Part shown: one piece after another, positions 6,063 to 47,455 of the stretch
Position numbering within the stretch: position 1 is the stretch's first letter
Layout of the letters: each line of letters begins with the position of its first letter
Assembly: GCA_017474845.1 (NCBI GenBank)
Contig: JAFVGS010000039.1
Coordinates: forward strand, 1-47,929
DNA length: 47,929 nt
Direction of reading: 5' to 3'
Source of the DNA: Prevotella sp.
GTDB lineage: Bacteria > Bacteroidota > Bacteroidia > Bacteroidales > Bacteroidaceae
The notes under the pieces: generated by a model
Database searches by the model: none
The model's input: only the letters and a program-made list of their open reading frames with translations
Told to the model about the DNA's origin: nothing
Position numbers and translations under genes: made by a program

Positions 6063-6084
6063 ATGATAATAAATCGTAATTTAT

Positions 6085-6115: not shown

Positions 6116-6146
6116 CAGCCAATAATGTAATTATTGCGCAAGTAAG

Positions 6147-21909: not shown

Positions 21910-21930
21910 TAAGACAGAATAACTATTTAA

Positions 21931-22067
21931 AGACAGATTAACATACGAACAAAATGAGAAGACAGATTAACATAATAACAACAATTCCGAGCATAACAAT
22001 ATGTTCGTATGTTATTATGTCTATAAGTAAAGTTCGTATGTCTATCTGCTCGTATGTTATTATGTCT
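21931..22067 (+). repeat. Direct and inverted short repeats at the propeller-lipoprotein start
   Basis: TCGTATGTTATTATGTCT occurs at 22005-22022 and 22050-22067. Its near-complement AGACAGATTAACATACGA is at 21931-21948, and a partial copy is at 21960-21974. The repeats run through the leader and signal-peptide codons, producing the repeated peptide ICSYVIMS. Confidence 0.7.
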
Positions 22068-24394: not shown

Positions 24395-24432
24395 CCATTT
24401 ACATTATTAACTTATTAAAAACAAAAGCAGTT

Positions 24433-25233: not shown

Positions 25234-25239
25234 TATCCG

Positions 25240-27386: not shown

Positions 27387-27470
27387 TACTCACTTGCCCA
27401 TTTCTGGCACTTTGCCTCTTGACGGCAGCAAATTTTCCGCTTTTCCCTTTTTCCTTTTCCCTTTTTTTCG

Positions 27471-27478
27471 TACCTTTG
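27471..27478 (+). promoter_or_regulatory. -7 box of the alpha-galactosidase gene
   Basis: TACCTTTG lies 30 bases before the start codon. The 35 bases upstream (27433-27468) are a C/T-rich 7-8 base repeat tract (CTTTTCC-like units) that replaces any -33 element. Confidence 0.6.
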
Positions 27479-27508
27479 CAACGACAAAACTCTAAAAATA
27501 CTGACGAG

Positions 27509-29932: not shown

Positions 29933-29952
29933 ATAGCTGAGCGGGAGAGGCA

Positions 29953-29972
29953 AGGGGTGGTCTGATCCGCCT
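29953..29972 (+). repeat. Fragment of a dispersed repeat
   Basis: Twenty bases (AGGGGTGGTCTGATCCGCCT) are identical to 40240-40259 inside the glycyl radical enzyme gene. This is a non-coding partial copy of that element. Confidence 0.7.
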
Positions 29973-30722: not shown

Positions 30723-33700
30723 CTACTCACGAGATTTCATATAGTCTGCCGGGCGGATGCCGAACTGCTTGAAGAAGCACTTCGAGAAGTAGGAGGGATT
30801 GGAGAATCCGACCATGTAGCCCACTTCGCTGACAGTATGGCCTCCCTCGTGGAGCAACTGGGCCGCACGCTTGAGACGGACTATCTGGATCATCTCGTTG
30901 GGGGTGACGTCGGCCAGGGTCTTGATCTTGGCAAAGAGTCCGCTGCGGCTGATGTTTAGCTGGGCTGCGAGGAAATCGACATTAAGGCCGGAGTTGGAGA
31001 AGTTGTCCTCGATGATGCGGTTCATACGGGTGAGGAAGTCATTGTCTGTGGGATTCTGCGCTATCTCCGTGACTGGCTCCAACGGCTGGGTGGAGAACTT
31101 CTCCATCAGCTGACGGCGTATCTGGAGAATGTTGCGGATGCAGGCCTCGAGATACTGCATGGAGAAGGGCTTCTCGATGTAACTGTCTGCCCCGACGTCC
31201 ATACCCTCGACCTTGGAGTCATCGTCGGTCTTGGCGGTGAGCATGACAAAGGGGATGTGGCTGGTGAGCTGGTTCTGGCGCACACGGCGGCAGAGCTCTG
31301 CGCCGTCCATGCGAGGCATCATCCAATCGCTGATGATGATGCTGACGTCGTGCTTCTGCAGGATATGAAGGGCCTCGATGCCATCGCCCGCGGTGATGAT
31401 GTCGTAGGTGGGGCTGAAGTTGGCGGAGAGGAAGTCGCGCATGTCCTCGGAGTCCTCGACGATGAGCATGGTGCTTTGTGGGGAAGTTAAAGGGCTTTGA
31501 AGGGAAGTTAAAGGGATGTTTAATGGACGTATGTCTGTGGCCTCTGTCTCCTCCTGACTCCTGACAACTGTTTCCTGACTCCTGACTATTGTCTCCTCCT
31601 GAACCACCGGCAGGACGACGGTGAAGGTGGAGCCACGGCCCACCTCGGAGACGACGGAGATATCGCCGTGGTGCTGGTCGACGATGCTCTTGACGATATT
31701 GAGGCCGATGCCAGTGCCGGGCTTGTTGCCCTCGGCCTGGAAGAAGGGCTGGAAGATGCGATGACGGTCTTCCTCGCGGATACCCACGCCATTGTCACTG
31801 ACGCTGATGCGGAAGTGGCCGGCGTCGGGTTCTTCGACGCAGGAGAGCCGGACGTCGTCCTTCGTGTATTTATTGGCATTGGTGAGCAGGTTGCTCACTA
31901 CCTTGATGACTGCCTCCTTGTCGACGATAGCCGTGAAATGCTTGTCGGGATAGTCTACCGTGAAGCGACGGCCGTTCTGCTCGAAAGTCGGGGCGAAGCG
32001 TTCACTCACCGACGCAATCAGGTCGTAGATGTTGTGGGGCGCAAAATGCATCACCAGACTCTGCTGCTCCACCTTGCGGAAGTCGAGCAGCTGGTTGACG
32101 AGTTCCAGGAGGCGGTGGGCGTTGCGGTCGATGACGTCGAGGGCTTGGAGGGAAGAGTCTTTCTTCAATTGTTCCAGGGGGCCGATGATGAGGGATACGG
32201 GGGTGCGGATCTCGTGGGCAATCATCGTGAAGAAGTTCAGGCGCGCCTCGCGTACCTCCTTCTCCTTCTGCTCGTTCAGCAGCTGCAGCTCCTTCTGGTG
32301 GCGGTGCTTCTCGCGCTTCAAGCGGAAATGCACATAGTAGGAGATGACCGCTCCTACCAACAACAGATAGAGCAGCTTGGCATACCAGCTCCACCAGAAC
32401 GGGGGGTGGACGATGATTTTGAGCGTGGCCTCGGTGGTGGACCAGAGGCCGTCGTTGTTCGTGGCCTTCACACGGAAGGTGTAGGTGCCGGCAGGGAGGT
32501 TGGTATAGGTGGCGTGGTTGTCGTTGCCCACATAGTTCCAGTCGCGGTCGAAACCTTCGAGCATATAGGCATATTGGATCTTCTCTGGCGAGCAGTAGCT
32601 GAGGGAGGCGAAGGAGAGGCTGACCATCTTCGAGTCGCCGTAGCCGATGGTGATCTCACGGGTGAGCGAGAGGTCGAGGGGCAGGCCGCAGGCATTGCGC
32701 TCTTCCTGATTCAGGATGCTCAGCGAGGTGACATATACGGGCGGCATCACGCTGTTGGGCTTGATCTGATAGGGGTAGAAGGTGTTGAAGCCGCCCGTCG
32801 TTCCCATATAGATGCGCCCGTCGCTGGCCATAAAGGCACTGTTCGGCTGGAACTGCTCGCTCACCAGGCCGTCGTGGCGCGTAAACCGCTGAGTGAGTGG
32901 CTGGGTCTGGGGGCGGTTCTCGGCGCCACCGGGCTCATACCTGACGATGCCCCTGTCTGTGGAGAGCCACAGGGCCCCGTGGTCTTCGATGATGCCCATG
33001 ATGTTGCGGCTGGGCACTTCGAGGGGGATGTGGTCGAAACGGTTGTGCTGGCTGTCGTAGCGGCAGAGCCCGTCGAGGGTGCCAAACCACAGGCGTCCGC
33101 CCTCGTCGACAAGGGCGCAGTTCACGTGGTCGCTGGGCAGGGACTGACTGTCATCGTCATCGTGAAGATAGCGTTTCAGCTGACGGTCGCTGATATGGTA
33201 CCGCCACAGTCCTTCGCCCTGCGTGGTAAGCCAGAGGTTGCCTTCCCGGTCCTCGTCGATATCGGTGGTCATCGCTCCCGTATGGCAGACACGCTCAAAC
33301 TGGTCGTCGGTGCGGTTGTAGAGGTTCAGTCCCTCCATGGTGGCCACCCATACCCGCCCGTGGCTGTCGCAGTAGATGGCATACGAGCTGGAACTGTCGA
33401 GGCTCCTGGGGTCGCTGCTGTTCACATATTGCCGCAGCTGGCCCGTCTCCAAGTTCATCACCAGCACGCCGTCGCTGTAAGTGCCTATCCACAGGTCGTT
33501 ATGGCCGTCGAGGCAGAGGGCATGCACATTGCGCTTGGAGAGTACATCCTGATGGGGATAGCCGACGAAGCGCTGTTCCTTGGGCGAGTAGCACATCAGG
33601 CCGCCGTCATCGCTGCCCACCCAGATGCGTCCCTGCCTGTCTTCGCAGAAACGGGAGATGACATTGCCGGCAAGTCCGTTATCCACGGAGAATCCGTCGA

Positions 33701-34640
33701 AGCGCTTGCCCACGGGAGAGATATACCTCACGCCGCCATAGAACGTGCCTATCCACAGGCCGCCCTCCGTGTCGTTGGTGATGGCATACACAAAGCGGTC
33801 GTCATACTTATCCCATTCCCCCGTCTTCGGATTCAGGCGCACTACGCCGTCGTCACAGCCGATGCAGATATGTCCGTCAGTCTGTTCGTAGAGCGTATGG
33901 ATATGCCATCCCACCTTCGCCTCCTTGGGACTGAGCACCGGTTCCAGACGGCCGTCGTCGTGCATGAGCAACAGCCCGTGCTCCCAGCTTCCCAGCCACA
34001 GCCGTCCGTCGCTCGTTTGGAGCATGCGGAGAGAACCGGGAGCAGCGTCGAAATGCAGCGTGACGGGCTCGAACTGGTCATGCAGACGGTTGAGTTTCTG
34101 CACGACGGGCTCTCCCCAGTTGGTGACAGACCAAATCTGATTGTTGCTGTCGACAAACACCTGGGCCACGGCACCGCCGGTGGCCTTGAAGTCGTAGTTC
34201 TTCGCCTGACGGGTCCTGACGACATAATACCATGCGCCCTGATCCATGGTCGACACCCACAGCCGGCCCTCCTTATCCATGGTGAGACTGGTCACCGTGG
34301 AATGTATGTCCATGGGGAGCCTGATGAAGGTCTGACGCTCAAAGTCGATGAAGAAGACGCCCTTGACCGTACCGACATAGATTCCCTCGTCGCCGACAAG
34401 CATGGCAGAGATGTACTGGTTAACACCCAGTTCGGCGATACGGAGCGGCAGCACCCGCCTGCCGTCATAGCGGCAGAGGCCGTTGTCTGTCCCGAACCAG
34501 ATGTAGCCGTTCTTGTCCTGGCCGATATTGCGCACGGCATTGGATGCCAGACCGTCGTTCATCGTCAGTGTCCTGCTATCCGCAGCCCGGAGGGATTGCA
34601 GCAGGAGGGTCGATATGATTACTAACAGGAGTCTTCGCAT
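30723..34640 (-). CDS. Hybrid two-component regulator (HTCS)
   Basis: A 1305-residue one-protein signalling system. A signal peptide is followed by two-component-regulator propeller repeats (about 25-640; blades like GNVISRFCEDRQGRIWVGSDDGGLMCY), a Y_Y_Y domain (about 645-750) and one membrane helix (about 755-775). Then come a histidine kinase with His809 (MIAHEIRTPVSLI), an ATPase domain (NLLTNANKYT, DNGVGI, GTGIGLNIVKSIV), a receiver with phosphate-accepting Asp1105 (SDWMMPRMDG) and an AraC-type DNA-binding domain at the end. HTCS proteins sense oligosaccharides and switch on nearby glycan-use genes. It starts three bases after the protease-GH43 gene, so it is read with the operon it likely controls. 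The kinase-receiver linker is largely heptamer-encoded. Confidence 0.95.
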   Translation of the reverse strand: MRRLLLVIISTLLLQSLRAADSRTLTMNDGLASNAVRNIGQDKNGYIWFGTDNGLCRYDGRRVLPLRIAELGVNQYISAMLVGDEGIYVGTVKGVFFIDFERQTFIRLPMDIHSTVTSLTMDKEGRLWVSTMDQGAWYYVVRTRQAKNYDFKATGGAVAQVFVDSNNQIWSVTNWGEPVVQKLNRLHDQFEPVTLHFDAAPGSLRMLQTSDGRLWLGSWEHGLLLMHDDGRLEPVLSPKEAKVGWHIHTLYEQTDGHICIGCDDGVVRLNPKTGEWDKYDDRFVYAITNDTEGGLWIGTFYGGVRYISPVGKRFDGFSVDNGLAGNVISRFCEDRQGRIWVGSDDGGLMCYSPKEQRFVGYPHQDVLSKRNVHALCLDGHNDLWIGTYSDGVLVMNLETGQLRQYVNSSDPRSLDSSSSYAIYCDSHGRVWVATMEGLNLYNRTDDQFERVCHTGAMTTDIDEDREGNLWLTTQGEGLWRYHISDRQLKRYLHDDDDSQSLPSDHVNCALVDEGGRLWFGTLDGLCRYDSQHNRFDHIPLEVPSRNIMGIIEDHGALWLSTDRGIVRYEPGGAENRPQTQPLTQRFTRHDGLVSEQFQPNSAFMASDGRIYMGTTGGFNTFYPYQIKPNSVMPPVYVTSLSILNQEERNACGLPLDLSLTREITIGYGDSKMVSLSFASLSYCSPEKIQYAYMLEGFDRDWNYVGNDNHATYTNLPAGTYTFRVKATNNDGLWSTTEATLKIIVHPPFWWSWYAKLLYLLLVGAVISYYVHFRLKREKHRHQKELQLLNEQKEKEVREARLNFFTMIAHEIRTPVSLIIGPLEQLKKDSSLQALDVIDRNAHRLLELVNQLLDFRKVEQQSLVMHFAPHNIYDLIASVSERFAPTFEQNGRRFTVDYPDKHFTAIVDKEAVIKVVSNLLTNANKYTKDDVRLSCVEEPDAGHFRISVSDNGVGIREEDRHRIFQPFFQAEGNKPGTGIGLNIVKSIVDQHHGDISVVSEVGRGSTFTVVLPVVQEETIVRSQETVVRSQEETEATDIRPLNIPLTSLQSPLTSPQSTMLIVEDSEDMRDFLSANFSPTYDIITAGDGIEALHILQKHDVSIIISDWMMPRMDGAELCRRVRQNQLTSHIPFVMLTAKTDDDSKVEGMDVGADSYIEKPFSMQYLEACIRNILQIRRQLMEKFSTQPLEPVTEIAQNPTDNDFLTRMNRIIEDNFSNSGLNVDFLAAQLNISRSGLFAKIKTLADVTPNEMIQIVRLKRAAQLLHEGGHTVSEVGYMVGFSNPSYFSKCFFKQFGIRPADYMKSRE
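31544..31599 (-). repeat. Eight-unit heptamer tract in the HTCS linker
   Basis: Eight units, on the plus strand CTGTCTC, CTCCTGA, CTCCTGA, CAACTGT, TTCCTGA, CTCCTGA, CTATTGT and CTCCTCC. With a 21-base higher-order period they encode ETIVRSQETVVRSQEE between the ATPase and receiver domains. About 45 bases further on, GGGAAGTTAAAGGG occurs twice with the same 21-base period (31480-31520). Confidence 0.85.
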
Positions 34641-34643
34641 AGT

Positions 34644-37600
34644 TTATTCATAGATGATGAAGTTGCTGAGCCTGACCCACGAGGGATTGTCAGAGTAGGT
34701 GGTCTGATAGGTGCCAATGCCTATTTTGCCTCCACTGAGGGAGACAGGCGAACCGGGCATGTTGCGCCAGGTCTTTCCGTCGCGGCTGGTACGGGCAAAG
34801 AGCAGATCGCCACGACGCTCGAATTGCAGGATAGGATCGGCATCATAGCCTTTGAAGTTGGGATATTGGGGCCTGCCATCCTTGCTGAGGATGGTGAAGA
34901 TGTTGCCGCAGTTGTAGAGGGGGAAGACGCCGAGCTGGTAGAACGAGCCGTCTGCATCGGCGATGAGCAGACCGCCGTCGTTGTAAGATTTGGCGCTGTG
35001 GTCGCGATAGCCCTCCATGTCGTCGAAACGGCACATCACCACAAAGTCGCCCTCCACCTGTTGACAGATGGTGCCTCCGTTGCTGAGCGGGGCATCGTTG
35101 AAGTTGGCGGTGGTGGCGGAGAGGGTGAAGGGTTCGCGCTTCTCTATGATGGGCTTCATCGAGGGTGAGAGCGTGAACTTGCTGTCAGGATCCGTCTCTT
35201 CGAAGTCGTCATCGCCAAGCGAGGGGGTATCCGACAGACGGGTGGCCTCATAGCGCCGTGACACCTCATCAGAACTGACGGAGCCCGGCTCGATGGAGAG
35301 CTGGCTGATATAGCCCTGGAACGTGTTTGTCCCCGTACCGTCGGCACCGATGGTGACGGGGCCTTCGGGACGTACCATGAAGAAGTTGTTCTGTTCATGA
35401 ATGAGTTGTCCGTTCAGATAGGCGCGCTCCTTCCATCCGTCGAAGGTGACAACCCAATATTGCCATTGGCCGATACCTGCCTTAATCGCCTCGGAGGCAC
35501 CAAAGCTCTCGAACGAGCCGTTGTGGTTCATCAGGCCTGCCGAGGGTTCTGTGCCTAAGCGCAGTTCCGTGGTGGCGAGGTCGGCGGGGGAGGGCGAGAG
35601 TGAGGCAATGGTGGATACAGGGCGTTCGTCGGTGCTGAGCACCCAGGCGGCGATGGTGTACGGAGCGTTATAGCGGAAGGTCTGTGGCAACGGCTCGCGC
35701 GTTTTCAGATGTTGGGTGCCGTTGAAGAAGAGCGCCCAGCGTCCGTCCTTGACTCTCGCACGGAGCGGTTTGTTCGCAGTGAATTCCGTCGTCTCGCTGA
35801 CATCAAAGGGAGCCTTCCTGCCCTGAGCCAGCTGCTCCACATCGAGGGTGATGGCAGAGGCTGTCCGCTGCTCGGGCCTTATGTCCATCTGGTGCATCCC
35901 GGGATAGCCGTCGTTTGTCTCCACATCGGTATTGGGAAGTTCGGGAGCCTTCTGCCACACCTTCACGTTCCAGATGGCAGGCATGTGTCCGTTCTTCTGG
36001 GTGTCACTGATGGTGATGCGGATGTAGCGGGCTTTTGTCTTTCCGCCGTCTATCATGGGTGAGCCTTGCAGGGTGTTGCTGCTGCGATCGGCGTAGAGCG
36101 TCCATTTCCTGGCATCCTTAGAGGTCTCAATCTTGTACTGATAGAAGAAGGTGGGATACTCGAACTGCGTCCAAATCTCGTTGAAGGACATGGTCTTGCC
36201 GAGGTCTATCTGCAACCACTCGTCGTGCTGCTGTCCGCCATCCCAATTGCAGCGGGCTGCCTTCCAGAGGGTGCCGTTGTTGTCGTCGACGGCGTACTCG
36301 GGCTTGAACCATTCGTCGTAATAGCTGCTGGTAGTGACCTTGGCGCCGAAAGCGAGGTCCTGGCCCCCGCCCACCACCCCGTCGTGGGTGGGGACGACGG
36401 GGAGGATATTCCCTTCGCCATCGAAACGCATCTCGTCGATGCAGATTTGGCGGTTGAAGCCGTGGACGGCGTGGGGATTGTTGTGGCGGTGATAGACGAT
36501 GTAGTAATGTCCGTTCTCCTCGATGATGCTGTGATGTCCCGGACCGTGGATGGTGCCGTCGGCATTGGTCTCCAAGATGCAGCCCTTGTATTCAAAGGGT
36601 CCCATGGGCCCGGCCTTCGAGACGGCATACTGCACGCGGTAGGTGTCGGTATGACAGGAACCGGAGGAATAGGTGAAGTAATACGTGTCACCACGTCTGA
36701 ACACAAAGGGTGCCTCGAAGATATCTTTCAGCTCCGTATTGGGAATCAGGCGCTTCTCTGAGAAGAACTCGTCGGCGGCAATGGGGAATGGCGCATCCTC
36801 GCGCCAGTTCCGTGCATCGCCATGTAACAGAGGGACGGTTCTTTTGTTACATCTCTCAGAGTCGGTGTCACAAAAGAACCGTCCCTCTGTTACATTTAAC
36901 TTCGCCACACCACAACCGAAACCTTTATAGATGCCCCAAGTGGTGAAATAGAGGTATTCTGAACCGTCGTCGTCGCGGAAGAGCTGGGGATCGAGAGTGA
37001 TGACATTGTGTACATAGCGGTCGGGCACCATCACGGCATCATCCTTGCCAAGGATATTGTGCCAGGGACCGATGGGCGTGGGACCCTCTCCGATGTTGAT
37101 GTTACAGGGTTCGCAATAGTAGTAACGGAAGGTGCTGTCCGTCTGCTGCACCACATCTGGGGCCCATACCACTTCGGTGGTGGGCCAGTTCATCACGATG
37201 TTCTTCCAGTTTCTGAAATCCTTCGATACCCACACCTGCGCCGGACCATAGCCGTTGCCAGTGCCGTCGGTGGTGGCATAGAGATACCAGGTATCGCCGA
37301 ACTTCCTGATGGTAGGGTCGGCGAAATAGCCTGGGATGAAGGGATTGCCCGCGCCTGGGGTGTTCCACGCTGCACCTTTCGTTTCCGTGCTGACACGGAA
37401 GGCATAGTCGAACGTTTTCAGTTCTGCCGGACCAGGCTCGGGGTTGGCTTCCGAGGGCATGGGAATCATATAGTGCTCTTCGGGAGCACCCATCACGATG
37501 AGATAGAGGTGGCGCAGGGTCTTCCCCTCAGGTACTGAAAAGGTCTTGGCATTGATGTCGCCATAGATCTCCTCGTCTTGGTCCGTGATGCCTACGAAAC

Positions 37601-38684
37601 CGTAGCGCAGGTGATTGCCTCGCATATCAAGATGGAACGTCCTGGCCCTGAGGTCTGTCTTGCTGTCGAGCAAGATGGCATTGAAGCCATATTCCTCTGG
37701 AACGTTCTTTGGGCGCAGCCAGTTCTCTTCGTCTCTCACCAGTTCGGTATCGAAGCTACAAGCATATTTCCGGGTTTCCTTCCTGGCGTGCTTGAAGTCG
37801 AAGTTCACCAGGTGCTGATAGCCTCGGAACATCTCGTCGCAGAACTGCTGCTGATTCAGACCGTACATCCGCTTATAGGTCATAACGGGATCCTCCCCGA
37901 TCTTACCCTGCCGGTAGAGTTCTGCTATCGACTTGCGTCCATGCAGGTCGCTCCACCACTGGATGACGTAGGGCGAGTGATAGATGTTCTCTAAATGCAG
38001 ATAGGCCTTGTGAGTGAGACCCTTGAAGGCCTCGAAGTGATAGTTCTCATCCGTCAGCCAGTCAGGATTCACCTGCCAGAGCATCCACTGCGAGGTCATC
38101 TCGAAGAACCCTGAGCCTCCCCAGGCATCACCCGCCTTGTCTGCCGGAATTTGAAGCTGGAACGAGTGTCCCAGCTCATGAGCCATGCAGTTCATCTTCT
38201 CATCCTGGATGCGGTTCGGTGCCACCCACAGGGCTCCGATGAAGTCGTCGTAGGTGCCGCCATAGGCCGTACCCTCGTTGGAGTACATCACCATCACCAT
38301 CATCTTATACTCATCGGCCTTTGATGATACCATTTCTCCCCCTGAGTAGGGGGAGCCAGAGGGGGTCTGAACAAACGCCAGTGTATCGCGGAAGAAATGA
38401 TAGAACGACTGTACCCTGTCTCGCAGGTTCGTCAGACTGAAACGCATAGGTTTGCCGTCAAGGTCTGGCCCTGATACGATTCCGTCCTTTGGCTCGGCAT
38501 CGAAACCCCGTTCCCACATGAAGATGAGGTCGTCGGTCTCCATGCTCCTCTTGAAGGACCATTTCGAGGTGTCGCTTTGGAGGTTCATTCCCTTCAAATC
38601 CTCTGGGATATAGATTTTCTTTATTTGTGCCGTAGCAGAGAGGGCTACTATTGTCAATACGGCAAAAAACTTCAATCGTCTCAT
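34644..38684 (-). CDS. Metalloprotease-GH43 multidomain secreted enzyme
   Basis: A 1346-residue exported protein (signal peptide MRRLKFFAVLTIVALSATAQ). Residues about 25-440 resemble DUF6055-type zinc proteases with MAHELGHSFQ (His169, Glu170, His173). Residues about 445-765 are a GH43 five-bladed propeller with base Asp456 (FADPTI), Asp565 (TLDPQLF) and acid Glu657 (IFEAPF), so an arabinofuranosidase or xylosidase-like activity. An F5/8-type C domain (about 775-925), a LamG-like domain (about 965-1165) and a DUF1349-like sandwich (about 1190-1346) follow, probably for glycan binding. A REPIN-like element is read in frame between Asp565 and Glu657, and a second element encodes TPSGSPYSGGE at 107-117. 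A protease and a glycosidase in one chain suggest a glycoprotein substrate. Confidence 0.88.
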   Translation of the reverse strand: MRRLKFFAVLTIVALSATAQIKKIYIPEDLKGMNLQSDTSKWSFKRSMETDDLIFMWERGFDAEPKDGIVSGPDLDGKPMRFSLTNLRDRVQSFYHFFRDTLAFVQTPSGSPYSGGEMVSSKADEYKMMVMVMYSNEGTAYGGTYDDFIGALWVAPNRIQDEKMNCMAHELGHSFQLQIPADKAGDAWGGSGFFEMTSQWMLWQVNPDWLTDENYHFEAFKGLTHKAYLHLENIYHSPYVIQWWSDLHGRKSIAELYRQGKIGEDPVMTYKRMYGLNQQQFCDEMFRGYQHLVNFDFKHARKETRKYACSFDTELVRDEENWLRPKNVPEEYGFNAILLDSKTDLRARTFHLDMRGNHLRYGFVGITDQDEEIYGDINAKTFSVPEGKTLRHLYLIVMGAPEEHYMIPMPSEANPEPGPAELKTFDYAFRVSTETKGAAWNTPGAGNPFIPGYFADPTIRKFGDTWYLYATTDGTGNGYGPAQVWVSKDFRNWKNIVMNWPTTEVVWAPDVVQQTDSTFRYYYCEPCNINIGEGPTPIGPWHNILGKDDAVMVPDRYVHNVITLDPQLFRDDDGSEYLYFTTWGIYKGFGCGVAKLNVTEGRFFCDTDSERCNKRTVPLLHGDARNWREDAPFPIAADEFFSEKRLIPNTELKDIFEAPFVFRRGDTYYFTYSSGSCHTDTYRVQYAVSKAGPMGPFEYKGCILETNADGTIHGPGHHSIIEENGHYYIVYHRHNNPHAVHGFNRQICIDEMRFDGEGNILPVVPTHDGVVGGGQDLAFGAKVTTSSYYDEWFKPEYAVDDNNGTLWKAARCNWDGGQQHDEWLQIDLGKTMSFNEIWTQFEYPTFFYQYKIETSKDARKWTLYADRSSNTLQGSPMIDGGKTKARYIRITISDTQKNGHMPAIWNVKVWQKAPELPNTDVETNDGYPGMHQMDIRPEQRTASAITLDVEQLAQGRKAPFDVSETTEFTANKPLRARVKDGRWALFFNGTQHLKTREPLPQTFRYNAPYTIAAWVLSTDERPVSTIASLSPSPADLATTELRLGTEPSAGLMNHNGSFESFGASEAIKAGIGQWQYWVVTFDGWKERAYLNGQLIHEQNNFFMVRPEGPVTIGADGTGTNTFQGYISQLSIEPGSVSSDEVSRRYEATRLSDTPSLGDDDFEETDPDSKFTLSPSMKPIIEKREPFTLSATTANFNDAPLSNGGTICQQVEGDFVVMCRFDDMEGYRDHSAKSYNDGGLLIADADGSFYQLGVFPLYNCGNIFTILSKDGRPQYPNFKGYDADPILQFERRGDLLFARTSRDGKTWRNMPGSPVSLSGGKIGIGTYQTTYSDNPSWVRLSNFIIYE
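36822..36895. repeat. REP/REPIN-like inverted repeat inside the GH43 domain
   Basis: Two perfect 26-base arms (36822-36847 and 36870-36895) around a 22-base loop. The core GGGACGGTTCTTTTGT matches the palindrome at 16198-16247. It is translated in frame as NVTEGRFFCD...NKRTVPLLH. Confidence 0.9.
38333..38370. repeat. In-frame dispersed element (SPYSGGE type), copy 1
   Basis: A purine-rich hairpin-forming stretch (CTCCCCCTGAGTAGGGGGAG core) is read in the metalloprotease domain as TPSGSPYSGGE. It is clearly related to 40215-40259. Confidence 0.75.
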
Positions 38685-38711
38685 TTGTCTGCGATTTGTT
38701 ATTGAATATGC

Positions 38712-39629
38712 TCAGCCTCCGATGATAACTTTCAGTCCGTAAGTTTCCAGTTGCCGGCTGCAACGGTCGAGAGTCTCATCTGTCGGCGATGACATAAGAT
38801 AGTTATGTGGATTATATACTGACGGGGGAAGCATGCGGCGATGCTTGTCCTTGCCCACATCGTGGTAAGGGAGGAGGTGGACGGTGACGGATGTTCGGAG
38901 CGATGCCAGGAACCTGCCCGTGGCATCCATGTTCTGTTCATCGGCATTGATACCCTCGATGAGGGGAATACGGATGAGGAAAGGATGGCCGCCGTCTGCC
39001 AGGTAACGGATGTTCTGAAAGATGAGGTCGTTGGGGACACCCGTATAGAGGCGATGGTTGTCTGGGTCCATGGTTTTCAGGTCGGCGAGAATCAGTTCGC
39101 ATTCCTTGGCCACCTCTGCCACCACCTCTTGTGATGCATAGAGCGAGGTATCAACCGTACGATGAAAACCGCGACGCCCCAGTTCCTTCAACAATTCAAG
39201 GGTATAGGCGTGATGCATTAGGGGCTCTCCACCACACAGGGTCACGCCCCCGCCGCTGTCCTCCATCACGGCACGCTCCTTTTCAATCTCAGCCATCAGG
39301 GCTTCCATCGTCCATGCCTTGCCGCACATCTCCAAGGCTGTCGTAGGACACTCCTCGGTGCAGAGATGGCAGACGGCGCAGGGATGCTCCATCACGATAC
39401 CGTCAGCCGTGAGACGAAGGAGCTGCTGCGGACACACGTTGACGCATGTCTGGCAGCCAATACACTTGGTCTTCTTATAAAGCACCTGAGCCTGCGGCGT
39501 CCAGCTCTCGGGATTGTGGCACCACACACAGCGCAGCGGACAGCCCTTCATGAAGATGGTTGTCCGTATGCCTGGCCCATCGTTGATGGCATACCTCTTA
39601 ATATCGAATATCAGCGCCTCAGTACTCAC
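38712..39629 (-). CDS. Glycyl-radical-enzyme activase (radical SAM)
   Basis: A 305-residue activating enzyme that places the glycyl radical on the partner encoded just upstream. The radical SAM motif is GCPLRCVWCHNPE (CxxxCxxC, about 30-42). Two ferredoxin-like cluster motifs lie between it and the barrel (CIGCQTCVNVCP and CAVCHLCTEECP, about 57-90), a feature of PFL2-type activases rather than pyruvate formate-lyase activase itself. SGGGVTLCGGEPLMH is the SAM-binding part. The start is a GTG at 39629, overlapping the end of the glycyl radical enzyme gene by 11 bases, so the two are translationally coupled. It is specific to that partner by context. Confidence 0.92.
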   Translation of the reverse strand: MSTEALIFDIKRYAINDGPGIRTTIFMKGCPLRCVWCHNPESWTPQAQVLYKKTKCIGCQTCVNVCPQQLLRLTADGIVMEHPCAVCHLCTEECPTTALEMCGKAWTMEALMAEIEKERAVMEDSGGGVTLCGGEPLMHHAYTLELLKELGRRGFHRTVDTSLYASQEVVAEVAKECELILADLKTMDPDNHRLYTGVPNDLIFQNIRYLADGGHPFLIRIPLIEGINADEQNMDATGRFLASLRTSVTVHLLPYHDVGKDKHRRMLPPSVYNPHNYLMSSPTDETLDRCSRQLETYGLKVIIGG

Positions 39630-42096
39630 TGTTTTCCGTTCTTGCGATGATCTCGTTCTGCAACTGCTCCGTCATATCGTTGAAGTAGTCGGAGTAGCCT
39701 GCCACACGCACCAGCAGGTCGCGGTATTCCTCGGGATGCACCTGTGCGTCGTGGAGCGTGGCGGTGTCGATGATGTTGAACTGGATATGATGGCCGCCCA
39801 TCTTGAAGTAGCTGCGAATCAGTGAGGCCAGTTTCTTCTGATCCTCCTCCCGTTTCAGCAGATTAGGGACGAAACGCACGTTCAACAGCGTACCGCCGCT
39901 CTTGGTCTGATCCAGTTTGCCAAGACTCTTGATGACGGCAGTAGGGCCGTGGGTATCCGATCCATGGGCAGGCGACGTACCGTCACTGATGGCGAAGTGG
40001 GCAAAACGCCCATTGGGGGTAGCCCCACACACCTGGCCGAAATAATTGTGGCAGGTCGTAGAGAGCATGTTCAGCTGCGTCTTGCCGCCACGGGTGTTGG
40101 GACGGCCTTCGATGGCCTTCACCAGATCGTCGTACACTCGCACGGCAATGCTGTCGGCATATTCGTCGTCGTTGCCGAAGAATGGCGTGTGGTTGCGGAT
40201 ATACTGGCGCATGATTTCCCCTCCTGAGTAGGAGGGGCTAGGGGTGGTCTGATCCGCCTCCCGTCCTGCGGTGGTACTTCCCCAGTTCGTAGCACAAGCC
40301 TCAAGGATCTGGTCCATCGTATAGCGCTTGTCCTCAAACACGTGCTTCTTCAAGGCCGCGAGACTGTCGGTGATGGTGCCGAGACCCGTACACTGGATAT
40401 AGGTGGTGTTATATCGTGCTCCGCCGCTATAATAGTCCCTACCCTTCTCGATGCAGTCGTCGATATAGAGACTCAGGAAGGTGGCAGGAGCGTAGAGCGA
40501 GAACATCCGCTCGATATAGTTGTTCACGGAGAGCTTCAAATTGACGAAGTACACCATCTGCCGATGCCAGGCGTCGTAAAGTTCCTCATACGTCTTGAAC
40601 CCTCGCGGATCCCCCGTCTCGATGCCTATCTTCTTCCCCGTCTCGGGGTCGACGCCATTGTTCAGCGTGATTTCCAATATCTTCGGCGTGTTCAGATAGC
40701 CCGTCAACAGGTAGGCCTCCTTGCCGAAGGCTCCCACCTCGATACAGCCTGAGCAACCACCCTCACGGGCATCCTCCAATGACTTGCCGGCTCGCACCAT
40801 CTCCTTCACATAGGTGTCGGGATTGAAGATAGAAGGATAGCCGTGCCCCTGACGGATCACCTTGATGCCTTCCAACAGGAACTCGTCGGGGGTGTTCTCT
40901 GCGATATGTATCGAGAGACCCGGCTGCAACTCATGCAGCTCCTCCTGGATTTCGAGAATGATATACGACAGCTCGTTGGCGGCACTCTTGCCGTTGCGGT
41001 CCACACCGCCGATATTGATATTGGTGAAGTCGTTATACGTGCCGCTTTCGAGGGCCGTCACGCCTACCTTCGGGGGTGCAGGCTGGTTGTTGAACTTGAT
41101 CCACAGGCACGAGAGGAGTTCCTTGGCCTGCTCGCGTGTCAGCGTCCCTTCCTCGATGCCTTTCTGATAGAAGGGCCACAGGTGCTGGTCGATATGTCCG
41201 GGATTCATCGAGTCCCAGCCGTTGAGCTCCGTCACCGTACCGAGATGCACGAACCAGTACATCTGTATCGCCTCCCACAGATCCCTGGGGGCATGGGCAG
41301 GCACCCACCGGCACACTTCGGCAATCTTCTCCAACTCCCGTATGCGCCGCTCGTCGGCCTCCGTCTTTACCTTTTTATCTTTTAACCTTTTTACCTTTTC
41401 CTCTGCGAGCTCTGCATGCCGTTCTGCAAACAGGATGGCCGCATCGCAGGAGATGGCCATCGCCTCCAGCTCCTGCTGCTTATCCGTAGCCTCGGGGTCG
41501 TAGATATAGTCGAGTTCCGCTATCTTCTTCTCAATACGGGCCTTCACGTCCAAAAGCCCCTCATGGTACATCTTGCCATCCATGGCCGTATGTCCTGCGG
41601 CACGCTGCTCCATAAACTCGGTGAACACGCCTGCATGATAGGCCTCTTCCCACGCCTTTGACACATGATTAAAGATGCGCTCCCGCTGGGTCTTGCCCTT
41701 CCAGTAGGGGATCACCTCACGCTCGTAGGTGTCGATATCGGCTTGCGAGATATGATAGCTTTGCAGCTCACGGGTATCGAGGGTGTGGAGATCTTCCACA
41801 GAGTGACAGGTCAGTTCGGGGAATGTCGGCACCGCCTTGGGCACAGGCCCGCGCTCAGCCACAATCAGCTCGTCATCGCCGATATAGAGTGTCTTCTTCT
41901 TGCAGATCTCATAGAAGTTCCTGGCCCGTAGCACTGCCGTGGGCATCGTACCGTAGTTCTGCTTATAAAACGCCGTCTCTATCAGGGCACGCTCTATCGA
42001 CAGCGTCGTCGGCGTGTCCATATTCTGCTGTCTCAGCCTTCTGATGCGGTCGTTCATGCCGCCCAGGTTCTCCGGATGTTTAATCGTATATGCCAT
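39619..42096 (-). CDS. Glycyl radical enzyme, probable trans-4-hydroxy-L-proline dehydratase
   Basis: An 825-residue PFL2-type glycyl radical enzyme. The radical site is RVAGYSDYF (Gly800), and the active-site loop is GCSGCIEVGAFGKEAYLLTGY (Cys451, Glu453, and Tyr467, 16 residues after the cysteine). That tyrosine spacing and the AFGKEAY run agree with what I recall of HypD (Cys434, Glu436, Tyr450), which dehydrates hydroxyproline to pyrroline-5-carboxylate. Lack of GCVEP argues against choline lyase or glycerol dehydratase. The ATG at 42096 is preferred to a TTG three codons earlier. In-frame inserts are a heptamer stretch (VKRLKDKKVK) and a dispersed element (about 614-628, before HTPFFGNDDEYAD). 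The activase follows with overlap. Confidence 0.72.
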   Translation of the reverse strand: MAYTIKHPENLGGMNDRIRRLRQQNMDTPTTLSIERALIETAFYKQNYGTMPTAVLRARNFYEICKKKTLYIGDDELIVAERGPVPKAVPTFPELTCHSVEDLHTLDTRELQSYHISQADIDTYEREVIPYWKGKTQRERIFNHVSKAWEEAYHAGVFTEFMEQRAAGHTAMDGKMYHEGLLDVKARIEKKIAELDYIYDPEATDKQQELEAMAISCDAAILFAERHAELAEEKVKRLKDKKVKTEADERRIRELEKIAEVCRWVPAHAPRDLWEAIQMYWFVHLGTVTELNGWDSMNPGHIDQHLWPFYQKGIEEGTLTREQAKELLSCLWIKFNNQPAPPKVGVTALESGTYNDFTNINIGGVDRNGKSAANELSYIILEIQEELHELQPGLSIHIAENTPDEFLLEGIKVIRQGHGYPSIFNPDTYVKEMVRAGKSLEDAREGGCSGCIEVGAFGKEAYLLTGYLNTPKILEITLNNGVDPETGKKIGIETGDPRGFKTYEELYDAWHRQMVYFVNLKLSVNNYIERMFSLYAPATFLSLYIDDCIEKGRDYYSGGARYNTTYIQCTGLGTITDSLAALKKHVFEDKRYTMDQILEACATNWGSTTAGREADQTTPSPSYSGGEIMRQYIRNHTPFFGNDDEYADSIAVRVYDDLVKAIEGRPNTRGGKTQLNMLSTTCHNYFGQVCGATPNGRFAHFAISDGTSPAHGSDTHGPTAVIKSLGKLDQTKSGGTLLNVRFVPNLLKREEDQKKLASLIRSYFKMGGHHIQFNIIDTATLHDAQVHPEEYRDLLVRVAGYSDYFNDMTEQLQNEIIARTENSEY
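40215..40259. repeat. In-frame dispersed element (SPSYSGGE type), copy 2
   Basis: The stretch with core CCCCTCCTGAGTAGGAGGGG can form a hairpin and continues into GGTGGTCTGATCCGCC. It is read in the glycyl radical enzyme as ADQTTPSPSYSGGE. It is related to 38333-38370; its end is identical over 20 bases to 29953-29972. Confidence 0.78.
41365..41400 (-). repeat. 7-8-base tract (CTTTTTACC family) in the glycyl radical enzyme
   Basis: Units such as CTTTACC, TTTTTAT, CTTTTAA and CTTTTTACC encode the lysine-rich KVKRLKDKKVK on the minus strand. This is the same sequence family that gives a Leu/Phe signal-peptide core at 9732-9762 when read from the other strand. Confidence 0.65.
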
Positions 42097-42100
42097 ATTG

Positions 42101-42170
42101 TTCAATCTTCAATGTTCAACGTTCAATGTTCAATCTTCAATGTTCAATGTTCAACGTTCAACGTTCAATG
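42101..42170. repeat. Ten-unit heptamer tract (TTCAATG family)
   Basis: Ten units with no slip: TTCAATC, TTCAATG, TTCAACG and variants. It contains the stop codon of the M24 peptidase (in the last unit) and fills the spacer up to five bases before the glycyl radical enzyme start at 42096. It is the longest tract in the window. Confidence 0.92.
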
Positions 42171-43574
42171 TCTCTTCGCCTCATACACTTCTTCGATCGT
42201 CATCGGTTTCTTAATGGTGCCGAGAAGTCGTGCCCCGCTGTCTGTCATCACATAGTTAAGCTCATTGCGCAGACCCGTAAAGTCGCGCCAGGGCCCCAGC
42301 TTGTCGTAGCAGATAAAGTCGCGGAACTGTCCCTCGGCCTCCCATTTGTCCATCAGTTCAGGGATGAAATAGATACCTGGCTCGACGGTGAATACGAAGC
42401 CTTTTTCCAACGGACGTGCCAGACGCAGCGACTTGAATCCGAACTGTGTCGATTTCACCTGCCCCTCGGCATAACCTACATACTGCTCGCCAAGATTCTC
42501 CATATTATGGACATCCAGACCCACCATATGTCCCAGTCCGCAAGGGAAGAACAGGGCGTATGCACCGCTTTCGGCGGCCTCGGCGGGATCCCCCTTCATC
42601 AGGCCCAGCTCCTTCATGCCCCGGGCTATCTCCGTGGCGGCGGCGATGTGGGCCTCACGGAAGGGAGTACCCAGGTGCAATTGATCCACTGCGGCCTTGA
42701 AACTGCGCAGATGGATGTTATAGACTTCCACCTGACGATCGGTGAACCGCTCACCCACAGGCATCGATGACGACAGGTCGCCAGCATAGTGGTTCTTCGT
42801 TTCTGCACCAGCATCGAGCAGGAAGATGTCACCCTCTTTCAGGTCATGGATAAACCCGTGGTTGTGGAGCACCTGTCCCTGTACGGTGGCGATGGTGGGG
42901 AATGCCAGGGCGTTGCCGTGGCGGCAGGCCACCTCCTCGACGGCCGCAGCCACCTCGCTCTCATGGATGCCAGGTCGCACCGTGCGATAGGCAGCGAGGT
43001 GCATCTCCGTGCTCAGGTCGACGCTCTCCTCTATCAGTCGTATCTCCTCCTCGTCCTTATAGTTGCGCTGCTTCACGATGGCCTTGATGAATTCCACAGA
43101 GGCTTTTGCTGTCTGGGCGGCAGGCTCCACACCCAGCAGTTCCCATAGCCATACCCGATGGTCTCCGCGATAGGGAGGCAGGAAGTGAATGGAGTTACGA
43201 TTTACAGATTTACGATTTACAGATTTACGATTTACGATTTTGGCCAGTTCACTCATGGGACGGACATCGGTGATGCCTACTGGCTCGCACCATTCTTTGA
43301 GCGAAGGCATAGCCCCCGTCCACACGATATCGTCAATCGTCAGGTCATTGCCAAAGACGATTTCACGGTCTTCATCGATATCGATAATCGCAGCAATGCC
43401 CGGAAAGTCGAGTCCGAAGAAATACAGCATCGTGGAGTCCTGACGGAACCGGTAGGTATTGTCGGCATAGTTCATACCCACCTCGTCATTGCCCAAGAAG
43501 AGCAACAGTCCGCTGCCCACGTCCTTCTTCAACTGCGCCCTGCGCCGTATATATGTTTCCTTACAGATTTTCAT
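42165..43574 (-). CDS. Xaa-Pro peptidase, M24 family
   Basis: A 469-residue cytoplasmic metallopeptidase of the aminopeptidase P/prolidase type, which splits the bond before proline (or hydroxyproline). An N-terminal creatinase-like domain is followed by the pita-bread domain. Its two-metal ligands are in LLDAGAETKNHYAGDLS (two Asp), FPCGLGHMVGLDVH (His), FTVEPGIYF (Glu) and GLRNELNYVMT (Glu). The ATG at 43574 is preferred to a TTG at 43580. It has no signal peptide. A heptamer tract is read in frame as IVNRKSVNRKSVNRNS in the linker between domains, and another tract supplies the stop. Its place before a probable hydroxyproline dehydratase suggests it feeds that enzyme. Confidence 0.92.
   Translation of the reverse strand: MKICKETYIRRRAQLKKDVGSGLLLFLGNDEVGMNYADNTYRFRQDSTMLYFFGLDFPGIAAIIDIDEDREIVFGNDLTIDDIVWTGAMPSLKEWCEPVGITDVRPMSELAKIVNRKSVNRKSVNRNSIHFLPPYRGDHRVWLWELLGVEPAAQTAKASVEFIKAIVKQRNYKDEEEIRLIEESVDLSTEMHLAAYRTVRPGIHESEVAAAVEEVACRHGNALAFPTIATVQGQVLHNHGFIHDLKEGDIFLLDAGAETKNHYAGDLSSSMPVGERFTDRQVEVYNIHLRSFKAAVDQLHLGTPFREAHIAAATEIARGMKELGLMKGDPAEAAESGAYALFFPCGLGHMVGLDVHNMENLGEQYVGYAEGQVKSTQFGFKSLRLARPLEKGFVFTVEPGIYFIPELMDKWEAEGQFRDFICYDKLGPWRDFTGLRNELNYVMTDSGARLLGTIKKPMTIEEVYEAKRH
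43194..43238 (-). repeat. Heptamer tract (AAATCGT family) in the M24 peptidase
   Basis: About six units of the ATTTACG/ATTTACA type on the plus strand. Read on the minus strand they give VNRKS repeats. Same family as 24336-24356. Confidence 0.85.
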
Positions 43575-43576
43575 TC

Positions 43577-44419
43577 TCAATATCTACTTATCTCGTTTAT
43601 TTTCTTGTGTTTGCTGATGTGCAGCGAGGTATTGGGGAAGAACTCTGCCAGCAGGTCGTAGAGGTCGGGATCGAAGTCCTTCAACTCTTCGCGAGTGTTG
43701 CACCAGTTGTGCTTCCCGTCCGTATGATCCATCTCGGCATTCACGTTGAACCAGTCCTGCACGGCTTCGGCGAAATACTCCTCCTTGTCCGTGATACGGT
43801 AGGTATTGTCAAGAATACCCTTTGCCTTCGCGTTCTCGTAGCATTGTTTCAGGCGATTGTCAAAATCAGGTACGGCGAGTGCCAGTCCGATAAGATGGAT
43901 AGAGTGTGCAAACTCGTGGATAAGGATATCCTCCGCATGATACTTATCGATCTGATAGGCGAGCACATTCTCTTCTGCACAACTCGTCAACGGCAGTTCG
44001 AGGTCACCGCCTAAGCCACGTGCCCTCAAATCCCAATTCAGGGCCGTATCGTTCACCAGATGATGGTGTTCGGGGATATCAGTGGTTCCCTCGTAGCGGG
44101 CCATGATGGCCACCCGCGTGCCATTGCTCACCATCGAGTCGAGCACCGCTTTGGGCAGCATCGAGGTCATGGCATACAGCGTGCGGTGGGCAGCCACGAA
44201 GGCAGAGTCCGGCACACGCCAGGAGGAGATGAGCGGCAGTCCGTTCACGTCAGTGTATTTCTTGTAGAAGGGGTCGAGGTTCAGGGAGTCCGGCGGGGTC
44301 GTCACCACACACGCTGGGATCTCCAACGTCTCCGTCTCCACGGCCACCTCCTGTTGCTGCCGTTGCTGACAGCCAGCCAACAGCAGGGTTGTAATACTCA
44401 AAAATAAAAGCTTCTTCAT
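43577..44419 (-). CDS. Zinc metallopeptidase lipoprotein
   Basis: A 280-residue lipoprotein with signal peptide and lipobox LLLAGC (cysteine near residue 17). The zinc motif is ILIHEFAHSIHLIG (HEFAH), followed about 50 residues later by EEYFAEAVQDWFNV, whose glutamate is a likely third ligand. This layout resembles gluzincin-type proteases, including lethal-factor-like domains, but I cannot name the family. It is the first gene of the six-gene unit and ends two bases before the M24 start codon, so it probably cuts peptides or proteins at the cell surface or in the periplasm. Its promoter carries the shared operator described at 44442-44509. Confidence 0.75.
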   Translation of the reverse strand: MKKLLFLSITTLLLAGCQQRQQQEVAVETETLEIPACVVTTPPDSLNLDPFYKKYTDVNGLPLISSWRVPDSAFVAAHRTLYAMTSMLPKAVLDSMVSNGTRVAIMARYEGTTDIPEHHHLVNDTALNWDLRARGLGGDLELPLTSCAEENVLAYQIDKYHAEDILIHEFAHSIHLIGLALAVPDFDNRLKQCYENAKAKGILDNTYRITDKEEYFAEAVQDWFNVNAEMDHTDGKHNWCNTREELKDFDPDLYDLLAEFFPNTSLHISKHKKINEISRY

Positions 44420-44441: not shown

Positions 44442-44509
44442 CAAAGTTACGAATTTTTTCTTCATATCCACTGACACAATCGTCCAAAATGATGCAACTA
44501 TCGTCTAAA
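44442..44509 (-). promoter_or_regulatory. Operon promoter with two direct operator half-sites
   Basis: The minus-strand -7 box TAACTTTG is at 44442-44449. Beginning 20 bases upstream is a 28-base block (44470-44497) identical to 47416-47443. Within and beside it, read on the minus strand, are TTTAGACGAT (44500-44509) and TTTGGACGAT (44479-44488), direct repeats exactly 21 bp apart. There is no TTTG -33 element at the usual place, which fits a promoter needing an activator such as the HTCS. Confidence 0.7.
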
Positions 44510-45424: not shown

Positions 45425-45950
45425 TCAAAAAGATGCCATAAAAGAATAAGGAAACTCCTTTAAATCTGTCCTCGGCTCTGGATTTTCTTCCGAAGGCAAT
45501 GGTATCTGATCGTGCAATACTGGTGCTCCCATCACGATGAGGTACAGATGTATAAGCGTCTTGTCGTTAGGAACAGTAAAACTCGTGGCGTTGATATCAC
45601 CATAGATCTCCTCGTCCTCTGTGGTGATGCCTACGAAACCATATCTCAGTTGGTTCCCATTGATCTGAAGACTGAAGCTCCGTGCATTCAAATCCACCTT
45701 GTCATCGAGCTTGATGGCGTTGAAACCATATTCCTCAGGATAGTCCTTAGGACGCAACAGCCCATCCTTTTGCGTCGTCACCTCTGTATCGAAGGTGCAG
45801 GCATATTTTCTGGTTTCCTTCCTGGCATGCTTGAAGTCGAAGTTCACCAAATGCTGATAGCCTCGGAACATCTCGTCGCAGAACTGCTGCTGATTCAGCC
45901 GACACCCCGCAAAGGGCACCTATCACGCAAATTATCAACAGCTTTTTCAT
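45425..45950 (-). pseudogene. Broken paralogue of the DUF6055-type protease domain
   Basis: A start at 45950 gives a sound signal peptide (MKKLLIICVIGALCGVSAES). The following sequence is in another frame and reads LNQQQFCDEMFRGYQHLVNF onward, nearly identical to residues 276-430 of the protease-GH43 protein (DNA near-identity between 45830-45898 and 37790-37858, stopping exactly at the codons for LN). The zinc-site half is missing and the end is cut (FPYSFMASF). Downstream at about 45345-45420 another frame reads GIFLNIGRLPSDPEAETNAV, a further remnant. I infer an internal deletion in a second DUF6055-type gene that once followed the CotH gene. Confidence 0.75.
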
Positions 45951-47388: not shown

Positions 47389-47455
47389 CAAAGGTACGGC
47401 TTTCCCCCCAAACCAACTGACACAATCGTCCAAAATGATGCAAATATAGTCCAAA
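47389..47455 (-). promoter_or_regulatory. CotH promoter with shared operator
   Basis: The minus-strand -7 box TACCTTTG is at 47389-47396. Nineteen bases upstream starts the 28-base block shared with the other operon (47416-47443). Half-sites on the minus strand are TTTGGACTAT (47446-47455) and TTTGGACGAT (47425-47434), again 21 bp apart. Confidence 0.7.

Follow-up and report, generated by a model that had tools for sequence, protein, structure and literature searches.

Within the window, that is, the whole stretch of 47,929 nucleotides of DNA from a rumen-type Prevotella sp. that was analysed, six minus-strand genes occupy positions 30723–44419. Starting from the first gene of the operon, they encode a lipoprotein gluzincin, hereafter LPpep (43577–44419), an M24 Xaa-Pro peptidase (42165–43574), the predicted trans-4-hydroxy-L-proline dehydratase HypD (39619–42096), its putative activase, a radical SAM glycyl-radical activating enzyme (38712–39629), a secreted fusion of DUF6055, GH43, F5/8 type C and laminin-G-like domains (34644–38684) and, last, a hybrid two-component sensor/regulator, HTCS (30723–34640). 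All six genes were confirmed, and the originally stated intergenic gaps of 2, 68, −11, 27 and 3 nucleotides were reproduced with ATG starts at 42096 for HypD, whose longer TTG frame reaches 42105, and at 43574 for M24. A 985-aa plus-strand open reading frame (31668–34625) is antisense to the HTCS gene and was rejected as a gene.

The feature reaches upstream beyond the six genes. The minus strand also carries the remnant of a second, decayed DUF6055 gene (45443–45901; 74.7 bits with the DUF6055 profile at profile positions 244–407, and a DNA repeat with 37435–37859) and a gene for a lipoprotein with a CotH kinase domain (45986–47362; Pfam CotH, 145.9 bits). The 19 window proteins scanned contain no SusC/SusD pair, which is the criterion for a Sus-type PUL. 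A TonB receptor is located at 19837–21909, with no SusD among its scanned neighbours.

Predicted functions of the operon proteins

The glycyl radical enzyme comprises PFL-like and Gly_radical domains (Pfam). It scores 1104 bits with the NCBIfam equivalog model NF043068 (cut-off 1100), while the next model reaches 602 bits, under its own cut-off. The best PDB match is 6vxc with 890 bits, followed by a chain with 461 bits, and all ten catalytic or substrate residues of the set described in PMC7077986 are kept (H160, D278, S334, D339, F340, C434, E436, Y450, T645 and G765). By these three lines of evidence the enzyme is HypD, with the corresponding activity predicted, and the original assignment holds; no affinity to another PFL2 subgroup emerged. 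The suggested "Hyp reduction" was wrong, since HypD dehydrates Hyp to P5C. The best model for the neighbouring radical SAM protein is the HypD activase NF043069 (T4HPD_activ; 315 bits, under the cut-off of 425), and the general glycyl-radical activase model TIGR02494 is passed. The protein can thus be annotated as a glycyl-radical activase, as expected, and its position in the operon points to HypD as the partner. The AMP_N and Peptidase_M24 domains (Pfam) agree with the predicted X-Pro peptidase, which is presumably cytoplasmic.

LPpep carries an HExxH motif, and residues H168, E169, H172, Y207 and E214 are invariant in all 42 aligned sequences. Sequence searches of Pfam and PDB failed to place the family: there was no significant PDB match, and the similarity to Pfam ATLF (PF07737, M34) is below threshold (22.7 bits against a gathering value of 27.4; E = 9e-5). 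A Foldseek search of the PDB with the AF2 model returned PPEP structures at all of ranks 1–20 (best E = 1.2e-4), and clostridial collagenase domains at lower ranks (E ≥ 0.036). This fold evidence is moderate, with a pLDDT of 73.4 and TM values by query length of 0.35–0.41 for ranks 1–10. The active-site set of PPEP-2 is H137, E138, H141, Y174 and E181 (PMC9147577). The Tyr-to-Glu distance is 7 in both proteins (Tyr-x6-Glu), and the last His-to-Tyr distance is 35 in LPpep versus 33. The predicted zinc metallopeptidase lipoprotein is therefore best described as an HExxH protease with a Pro-Pro-endopeptidase-like predicted fold and putative specificity.

The originally predicted metalloprotease-GH43 fusion was upheld in its GH43 half (Pfam, 112 bits), with ADPT, WAPD and FEAP motifs in all six proteins aligned; the conserved Asp, Asp and Glu of GH43 are catalytic residues. 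The best PDB match of the fusion is the GH43 structure 5msx, which we take to be BT3662, reported active on RG-II. The "metalloprotease" half did not stand as named: it is Pfam DUF6055, a domain of no known function, with an HExxH kept in 35/35 relatives aligned (a putative peptidase), and a profile search of the PDB drew no hit at E ≤ 1. The HTCS has the complete domain set in one chain, as predicted (Reg_prop, Y_Y_Y, HisKA, HATPase_c, response regulator and the AraC-type HTH_18), with relatives in genomes G301, G302, G233 and G032. The operon is probably switched on by this putatively sugar-sensing and DNA-binding regulator.

Operator-like sites upstream of the operon

A tandem-repeat operator-like site precedes LPpep (44470–44508, minus strand), and a second copy precedes the CotH gene (47416–47454, minus strand). 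Two -7-like boxes were read from the sequence on the same strand, TAACTTTG upstream of LPpep (44442–44449) and TACCTTTG upstream of CotH (47389–47396), and were judged against what we take to be the Bacteroidota consensus. A search of eight genomes with up to three mismatches yielded six sites in four of them, compared to none for the reversed pattern. Two of them lie in front of HypD operons and three in front of CotH genes; the sixth, in the closest relative (G301), precedes a gene for a GH127 beta-L-arabinofuranosidase. No site was seen at the HypD operon of G302 or of P. communis. On account of the upstream element in common, the CotH gene is a probable member of the regulon. A GH36 gene (27419–29692) was considered as the alpha-galactosidase of the system and rejected, with no site found nearby and the opposite orientation.

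Conserved core and related loci

LPpep, M24, HypD and the activase are a conserved core according to gene neighbourhoods. Among the best 80 loci retrieved by LPpep alone, M24 occurs in 60 (≤120 nt after LPpep in 43), HypD in 48, the activase in 40 and a P5C dehydrogenase (>60% identical) in 33, with at least one of the four near LPpep in 70. The one P5C dehydrogenase tested scored 755 bits with TIGR01236 (cut-off 613.6). GH43 is found near LPpep in only two of these 80 loci, and the HTCS, at 60 bits, in none of 60 HypD loci of the family, which were stretches of ≤19 kb, some ending at contig ends. HTCS and GH43 within a HypD operon were found in two genomes only. By this distribution they are lineage-specific additions, common to the closest relative, where the order is LPpep-M24-HypD-activase-PutA-like-GH43-HTCS and the tight spacing is kept. 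GH43 and HTCS are missing from nearly all of the core loci examined.

Since the four-gene core is widespread without GH43 or HTCS, it cannot by itself separate plant from collagen use, and the core as a marker of plant protein use was rejected. The same distribution would suit an operon for growth on Hyp peptides, such as those of collagen or gelatin, with GH43 and HTCS as incidental neighbours. The HypD of C. difficile is tied to collagen-derived Hyp (PMC9044972), and collagenase domains are among the lower fold matches of LPpep. Nevertheless, we consider such a diet highly improbable: record titles name a ruminant host or rumen for 27 of the best 80 LPpep loci and no other host for any, the GH127 gene has the same upstream site as the operon and, in another genus (G032), an LPpep homologue lies inside a GH127/GH43/SusCD locus, fused to GH97.

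Orthologues of the HTCS stand beside GH127 and DUF6055 genes in three genomes. The loci read DUF4859, DUF6055, GH43, CotH, GH127, DPP-IV, GH127 in P. communis; GH127, GH97, GH127, SusC, SusD, DUF6055, CotH, DUF6055 in G302; and GH127, SusC, SusD, DUF6055, the GH97-LPpep fusion, GH43, GH127, DPP-IV in G032. CotH, GH43, DPP-IV, GH97 or SusCD are thus present in some of them, GH43 together with DPP-IV in two of the three. Beyond the HTCS of G302, pectin-type genes of families GH28, GH2 and GH88 follow; they make a plant glycoprotein substrate slightly less certain and raise the standing of another explanation, that GH43 and HTCS serve arabinan or pectin (RG-I/RG-II) and are chance neighbours of the hydroxyproline operon with no functional link. 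A second GH43-HTCS copy of G301, apart from HypD and adjoined by a GH106 rhamnosidase gene, and the GH43 orthologue of G155, which adjoins a GH2 gene, speak in the same direction. We judge this explanation quite unlikely in view of the tandem site, which precedes the HypD operon in two genomes as well as CotH and GH127 genes, and of the gene spacing kept in the closest relative.

The glycoprotein itself is a further question. The best PDB match of the GH127 from the P. communis locus is 6ex6 (1008 bits), which we take to be BT3674, linked to arabinogalactan protein (AGP). BT3675, a GH43_34 enzyme, acts on gum arabic AGP (PMC8939339), and BT3674 helps to degrade larch AG (PMC10850190). The same system might therefore have AGP, e.g., of the gum arabic type, rather than extensin as its main substrate. 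This is an unlikely variant: in the P. communis, G302 and G032 loci, the glycosidases scanned between the HTCS and the final GH127 or DPP-IV gene belong to GH127, GH43 and GH97, with no galactanase family, and DPP-IV and LPpep suggest a Pro-rich backbone.

Proposed function and comparison with known systems

Plant walls contain extensins and related Hyp-rich proteins as structural components. We interpret the operon as one branch, devoted to protein and hydroxyproline, of a regulon that targets hydroxyproline-rich glycoproteins (HRGPs) of plants, most likely of the extensin type, with a probability of roughly 0.63 on genomic evidence. The site before a GH127 gene, the HTCS orthologues beside GH127 and DUF6055 genes and the predicted LPpep fold all favour the plant glycoprotein substrate first proposed. 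Several observations count against this interpretation: the rarity of GH43 and HTCS in such operons, the pectin-type genes and the GH106 gene in relatives, the moderate LPpep model with its weak sequence matches, the lack of a PDB match for DUF6055 and the HypD operons of G302 and P. communis, where no site was seen. Moreover, AGP and RG-II are likewise substrates of GH127 and GH43 enzymes, and the source genome assembly, which is 58.86% complete, yielded no GH127 (E ≤ 1e-10; present in 4/4 relatives searched), no ProC (12 of 14 control genomes positive) and no PutA, the sole match for the latter being an aldehyde dehydrogenase that shares 25% identity with the tested P5C dehydrogenase. Three of the four relatives searched match ProC only under the curated cut-off.

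In the proposed extensin pathway, a glycan fragment set free from the substrate would be sensed in the periplasm by the HTCS, which would activate promoters with the tandem site. GH43, joined in relatives' loci by GH127 and a GH97 alpha-galactosidase-like enzyme, would free the Hyp residues of arabinose and the Ser residues of galactose, and the Pro/Hyp-rich backbone thereby exposed would be cut by DUF6055 and LPpep. The peptides would be imported, M24 would trim Xaa-Pro/Hyp bonds inside the cell, and HypD with its activase would convert Hyp to P5C. Where a P5C dehydrogenase or PutA gene is linked, its product would oxidise P5C to glutamate; alternatively, ProC may reduce P5C. Only tentatively, at slightly less than even odds, do we extend this to a scheme in which a single glycan-sensing HTCS acts through one tandem site on deglycosylation (GH127, GH43, CotH-DUF6055) as well as on the anaerobic radical catabolism of the freed Hyp by HypD, and in which Hyp/Pro-rich backbones are cut by Pro-Pro-endopeptidase-like lipoproteins that form a new branch in Bacteroidales.

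If true, glycan sensing and amino-acid catabolism would be joined in one system, which would amount to full use of extensin, from its sugars to the carbon of Hyp. A likely function would follow for DUF6055 and for the unnamed lipoprotein protease family, whose LPpep-type member would also serve the SusCD locus of another genus in fusion with GH97. The question could then be addressed in Prevotella communis E15-14, a rumen species available in culture. Titles and abstract openings on extensin/HRGP use (Bacteroides, Phocaeicola, Prevotella, rumen) and on Pro-Pro endopeptidases with hydroxyproline revealed no such locus, nor any description of backbone and hydroxyproline disposal by anaerobic gut or rumen bacteria. 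GH127, extensin and hydroxyproline do not occur in the portion of the rumen PUL transcriptome paper PMC11107044 that was covered. No earlier description of such a union of sugar and amino-acid use was found in these searches.

Parts of the system have counterparts elsewhere. The HypAA (GH43)-HypBA2 (GH121)-HypBA1 (GH127) cluster of Bifidobacterium longum, with its ABC importer, acts on Ara-Hyp of HRGPs (PMC7263609), and the relatives' loci resemble it in their GH43 and GH127 logic for Hyp-linked arabinosides; the portion of that source covered describes no protease or hydroxyproline catabolism, whereas the present operon unites HypD with peptidases and an HTCS. No GH121 turned up in the set of proteins scanned for the present system. 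The radical enzyme and activase are of the same type as HypD/HypD-AE of Clostridioides difficile, which act with P5C reductase (PMC7077986, PMC9044972). Unlike in C. difficile, the two genes here share an operon with those for peptidases, GH43 and a sensor of the glycan type, and relatives link a P5C dehydrogenase or PutA-like gene instead of ProC. LPpep is similar to the Pro-Pro endopeptidases PPEP-1/2/3 (MEROPS M34) in predicted fold, HExxH and Tyr-x6-Glu spacing, but is a Bacteroidales lipoprotein with similarity below the Pfam threshold and linkage to hydroxyproline catabolism. Finally, Bacteroidota HTCS PULs, those of B. thetaiotaomicron for AGP and RG-II among them, likewise combine an HTCS with secreted glycosidases, and SusC/SusD are present in the loci of two relatives (G302 and G032); the window operon differs from them in having no SusC/SusD and in ending in amino-acid catabolism.

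Operon organization and the HypD enzyme

The original prediction placed six closely spaced minus-strand genes at 30723–44419, and both the genes and their spacing were borne out. Domain searches identified a lipoprotein with an HExxH motif (LPpep, 43577–44419), followed in transcription order by an AMP_N/M24 peptidase, the glycyl radical enzyme HypD, its radical SAM family activase, a secreted fusion with the domain order DUF6055-GH43-F5/8C-laminin-G and an HTCS. The source genome (2,151,578 bases, 93 contigs, the window being one whole contig) is 58.86% complete, so that absences elsewhere in it mean little; no GH127, ProC or PutA was found there. A 97% palindrome with 30-nt arms (36822–36895) lies in frame within the GH43 catalytic domain and has no counterpart in the GH43 of P. 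communis and G032, a genome of another genus of the same family. An array of TTCAATGTTCAA type is located between HypD and M24 (42087–42169), and the M24 protein also contains a NRKSVNRKSVNRNS repeat.

The assignment of the radical enzyme to HypD is upheld by the equivalog, passed with 1104 bits against a cut-off of 1100. In the PDB, C. difficile HypD is the top match (890 bits, against 461 for the next). PMC7077986 names ten residues at which mutation abolished or reduced radical formation or activity; all ten are conserved in the window enzyme. They are also kept across 59 aligned HypD proteins, window included, bar gaps in 2/59 and 3/59 rows at two positions. Loci L059 and L074 were left out of this alignment because the ORF caller took the antisense frame there. 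A 36-nt repeat (40224–40259) lies in frame within HypD and reads PSPSYSGGE; its other copies are inside DUF6055 (38342–38377, a 64% copy) and between genes (29937–29972). After window residue ~607, a loop carries in-frame insertions, identified by eye, in 11 of the 59 proteins (window, L043, L044, L046, L047, L049, L051, L081, L082, L083 and L088). The inserts are of four or more unrelated kinds, some of them similar to intergenic repeats, and the loop is possibly an insertion hotspot.

Elsewhere in the window, genes for a TonB receptor, DUF5074, DUF4465, a periplasmic binding protein and an FecCD permease (19837–27386) form a metal-chelate or corrinoid uptake cluster, and 3767–9689 encodes a beta-ketoacyl synthase, a GH3-family (Pfam PF03321) protein and a Big_5 protein.

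HTCS relatives, a shared upstream site and the probable substrate

The closest relative, Prevotella sp. Tb.RUG.304 (G301), has an LPpep 93% identical to that of the window, and its gene order is LPpep-M24-HypD-activase-PutA-like-GH43-HTCS. Since the G301 GH43 keeps a nearly identical signal peptide without DUF6055, either the two parts were joined in the window lineage or G301 lost DUF6055. Among the matches listed for 301 genomes, with two candidates scored per genome, there was one other full-length fusion match (G038, 73%, stand-alone).

The HTCS sensor is 73% and 75% identical to the two G301 copies, 68% to that of G302, 61% to that of P. communis (G233) and 44% to that of G032. In P. communis, its neighbours are DUF4859, DUF6055, GH43, CotH, GH127, DPP-IV and GH127. 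The G302 stretch holds GH127, an alpha-galactosidase-like GH97, GH127, SusC, SusD, two DUF6055 genes and CotH; pectin-type GH28, GH2 and GH88 genes lie beyond the HTCS, as would be expected if HTCS and GH43 served arabinan or pectin use and were chance neighbours of the hydroxyproline operon. The second G301 copy (L238) accompanies GH43 and an adjoining GH106 rhamnosidase. G032 unites HTCS, GH127, SusC, SusD, DUF6055, a GH97-LPpep fusion, GH43, GH127 and DPP-IV; no HypD match at E ≤ 1e-180 came from this genome. Because of these HTCS loci, the window operon looks like a meeting of two modules, a hydroxyproline-rich glycoprotein locus and a hydroxyproline core.

In L273 (13674–16394), a GH97 enzyme bears an LPpep domain at its C-terminus inside a SusC/SusD locus. 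Two genomes of the same genus as G032 have related arrangements: G205 has a similar locus with DUF6055, a separate LPpep gene, GH43, GH127 and DPP-IV. In G177, visual inspection and hmmsearch put GH97 and LPpep in separate but overlapping frames, and a GH27-type alpha-galactosidase adjoins DUF6055.

A 58-bp repeat (83%) is shared by the regions preceding LPpep and the CotH lipoprotein gene (45986–47362, minus strand). Its core is a tandem repeat with a 21-bp spacing, judged by eye, at −51 to −89 relative to the ATG of LPpep and −54 to −92 relative to that of CotH. With up to three mismatches, a 39-mer of the site matched the whole source genome twice, solely at these positions. A 27-mer found six sites in four of eight genomes: before LPpep and CotH in the window genome, before the LPpep operon and a GH127 gene in G301, before CotH, which DUF6055 follows, in G302, and before CotH in P. 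communis. G038, G075, G150 and G246 had none, and the reversed 27-mer gave zero sites in all eight. A matrix built from five sites added one between the HTCS and DUF4859 genes of P. communis (29.4 bits, one-base shift) and two weaker matches (21–22 bits) between the GH127 and GH97 genes of G301; when 12 loci were mononucleotide-shuffled once, no match reached 8 bits. A TAnnTTTG box follows 24–25 nt after four of the five sites read, the GH127 site having TATTTTG instead. We infer that HTCS binds the tandem site. No such site was found near the GH36 alpha-galactosidase-like gene on the strand opposite to the operon (27419–29692).

A plant hydroxyproline-rich glycoprotein is the probable substrate. 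Extensin serine bears alpha-galactose, which GH97 would suit. Extensin Hyp carries three beta-linked arabinofuranoses, with a terminal alpha-linked one added in the four-sugar form, according to PMC7263609; this structure matches GH127 plus GH43. Relatives of both enzymes also act on arabinogalactan proteins and RG-II, which counts against a firm choice of extensin. Record titles of 27 of the best 80 LPpep loci, out of 201, name ruminants or rumen, and no other host. Searches of the literature, mostly of non-subscription papers, brought up no such locus, which is weak evidence of absence.

The predicted protease and the hydroxyproline core

A profile search of the PDB with LPpep gave no significant match, and Pfam gave solely a sub-threshold M34-type match in 3 of 13 members. 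An AlphaFold2 model (42 input sequences, pLDDT 73.4, pTM 0.72) retrieved Pro-Pro endopeptidases as Foldseek matches 1–20 (best E 1.2e-4, TM ~0.4 by query length), with lethal factor and clostridial collagenase domains below them. H168, E169, H172, Y207 and E214 are invariant in 42/42 sequences, and the Tyr-Glu distance of seven residues is like that of Y174/E181 in PPEP-2, as given in PMC9147577. Together, the fold matches, invariant residues and Tyr/Glu spacing lead us to predict an endopeptidase of Pro-rich sequence, its family membership not yet being proven. LPpep relatives occur in 4 of 395 genomes of a phylum-wide sample, window genome included. Tandem two-domain forms of ~545–550 aa (L077, 14850–16502; L078, 9194–10831; L036, 1699–3300) are preceded by CotH and followed by a 2Fe-2S/FAD protein of 1092–1124 aa, possibly an oxidoreductase of proline or hydroxyproline.

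The HypD-based sample covered 60 of 62 HypD stretches from 61 of 301 family genomes, the other two being that of the window and a G102 stretch. LPpep was present in ten of the 60, and a window-type HTCS in none at 60 bits. The reverse sample, with LPpep as the sole query, took the best 80 named loci of the 201 relatives found. M24 occurs in 60 of these 80, HypD in 48 (downstream on the same strand in 42), activase in 40 and a P5C dehydrogenase of >60% identity in 33; at least one of the four is present in 70. Among the ten loci lacking them, L152 has a PutA-like gene directly 3′ of LPpep. The single P5C dehydrogenase checked passes its equivalog, and the best model for the PutA-like protein is PutA, below cut-off (379 of 747 bits). 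On the basis of these counts and the P5C dehydrogenase match, the core reads as lipoprotein protease, X-Pro peptidase, HypD and activase, and then conversion of P5C to glutamate. In C. difficile, by contrast, the HypD partner described in PMC9044972 is ProC.
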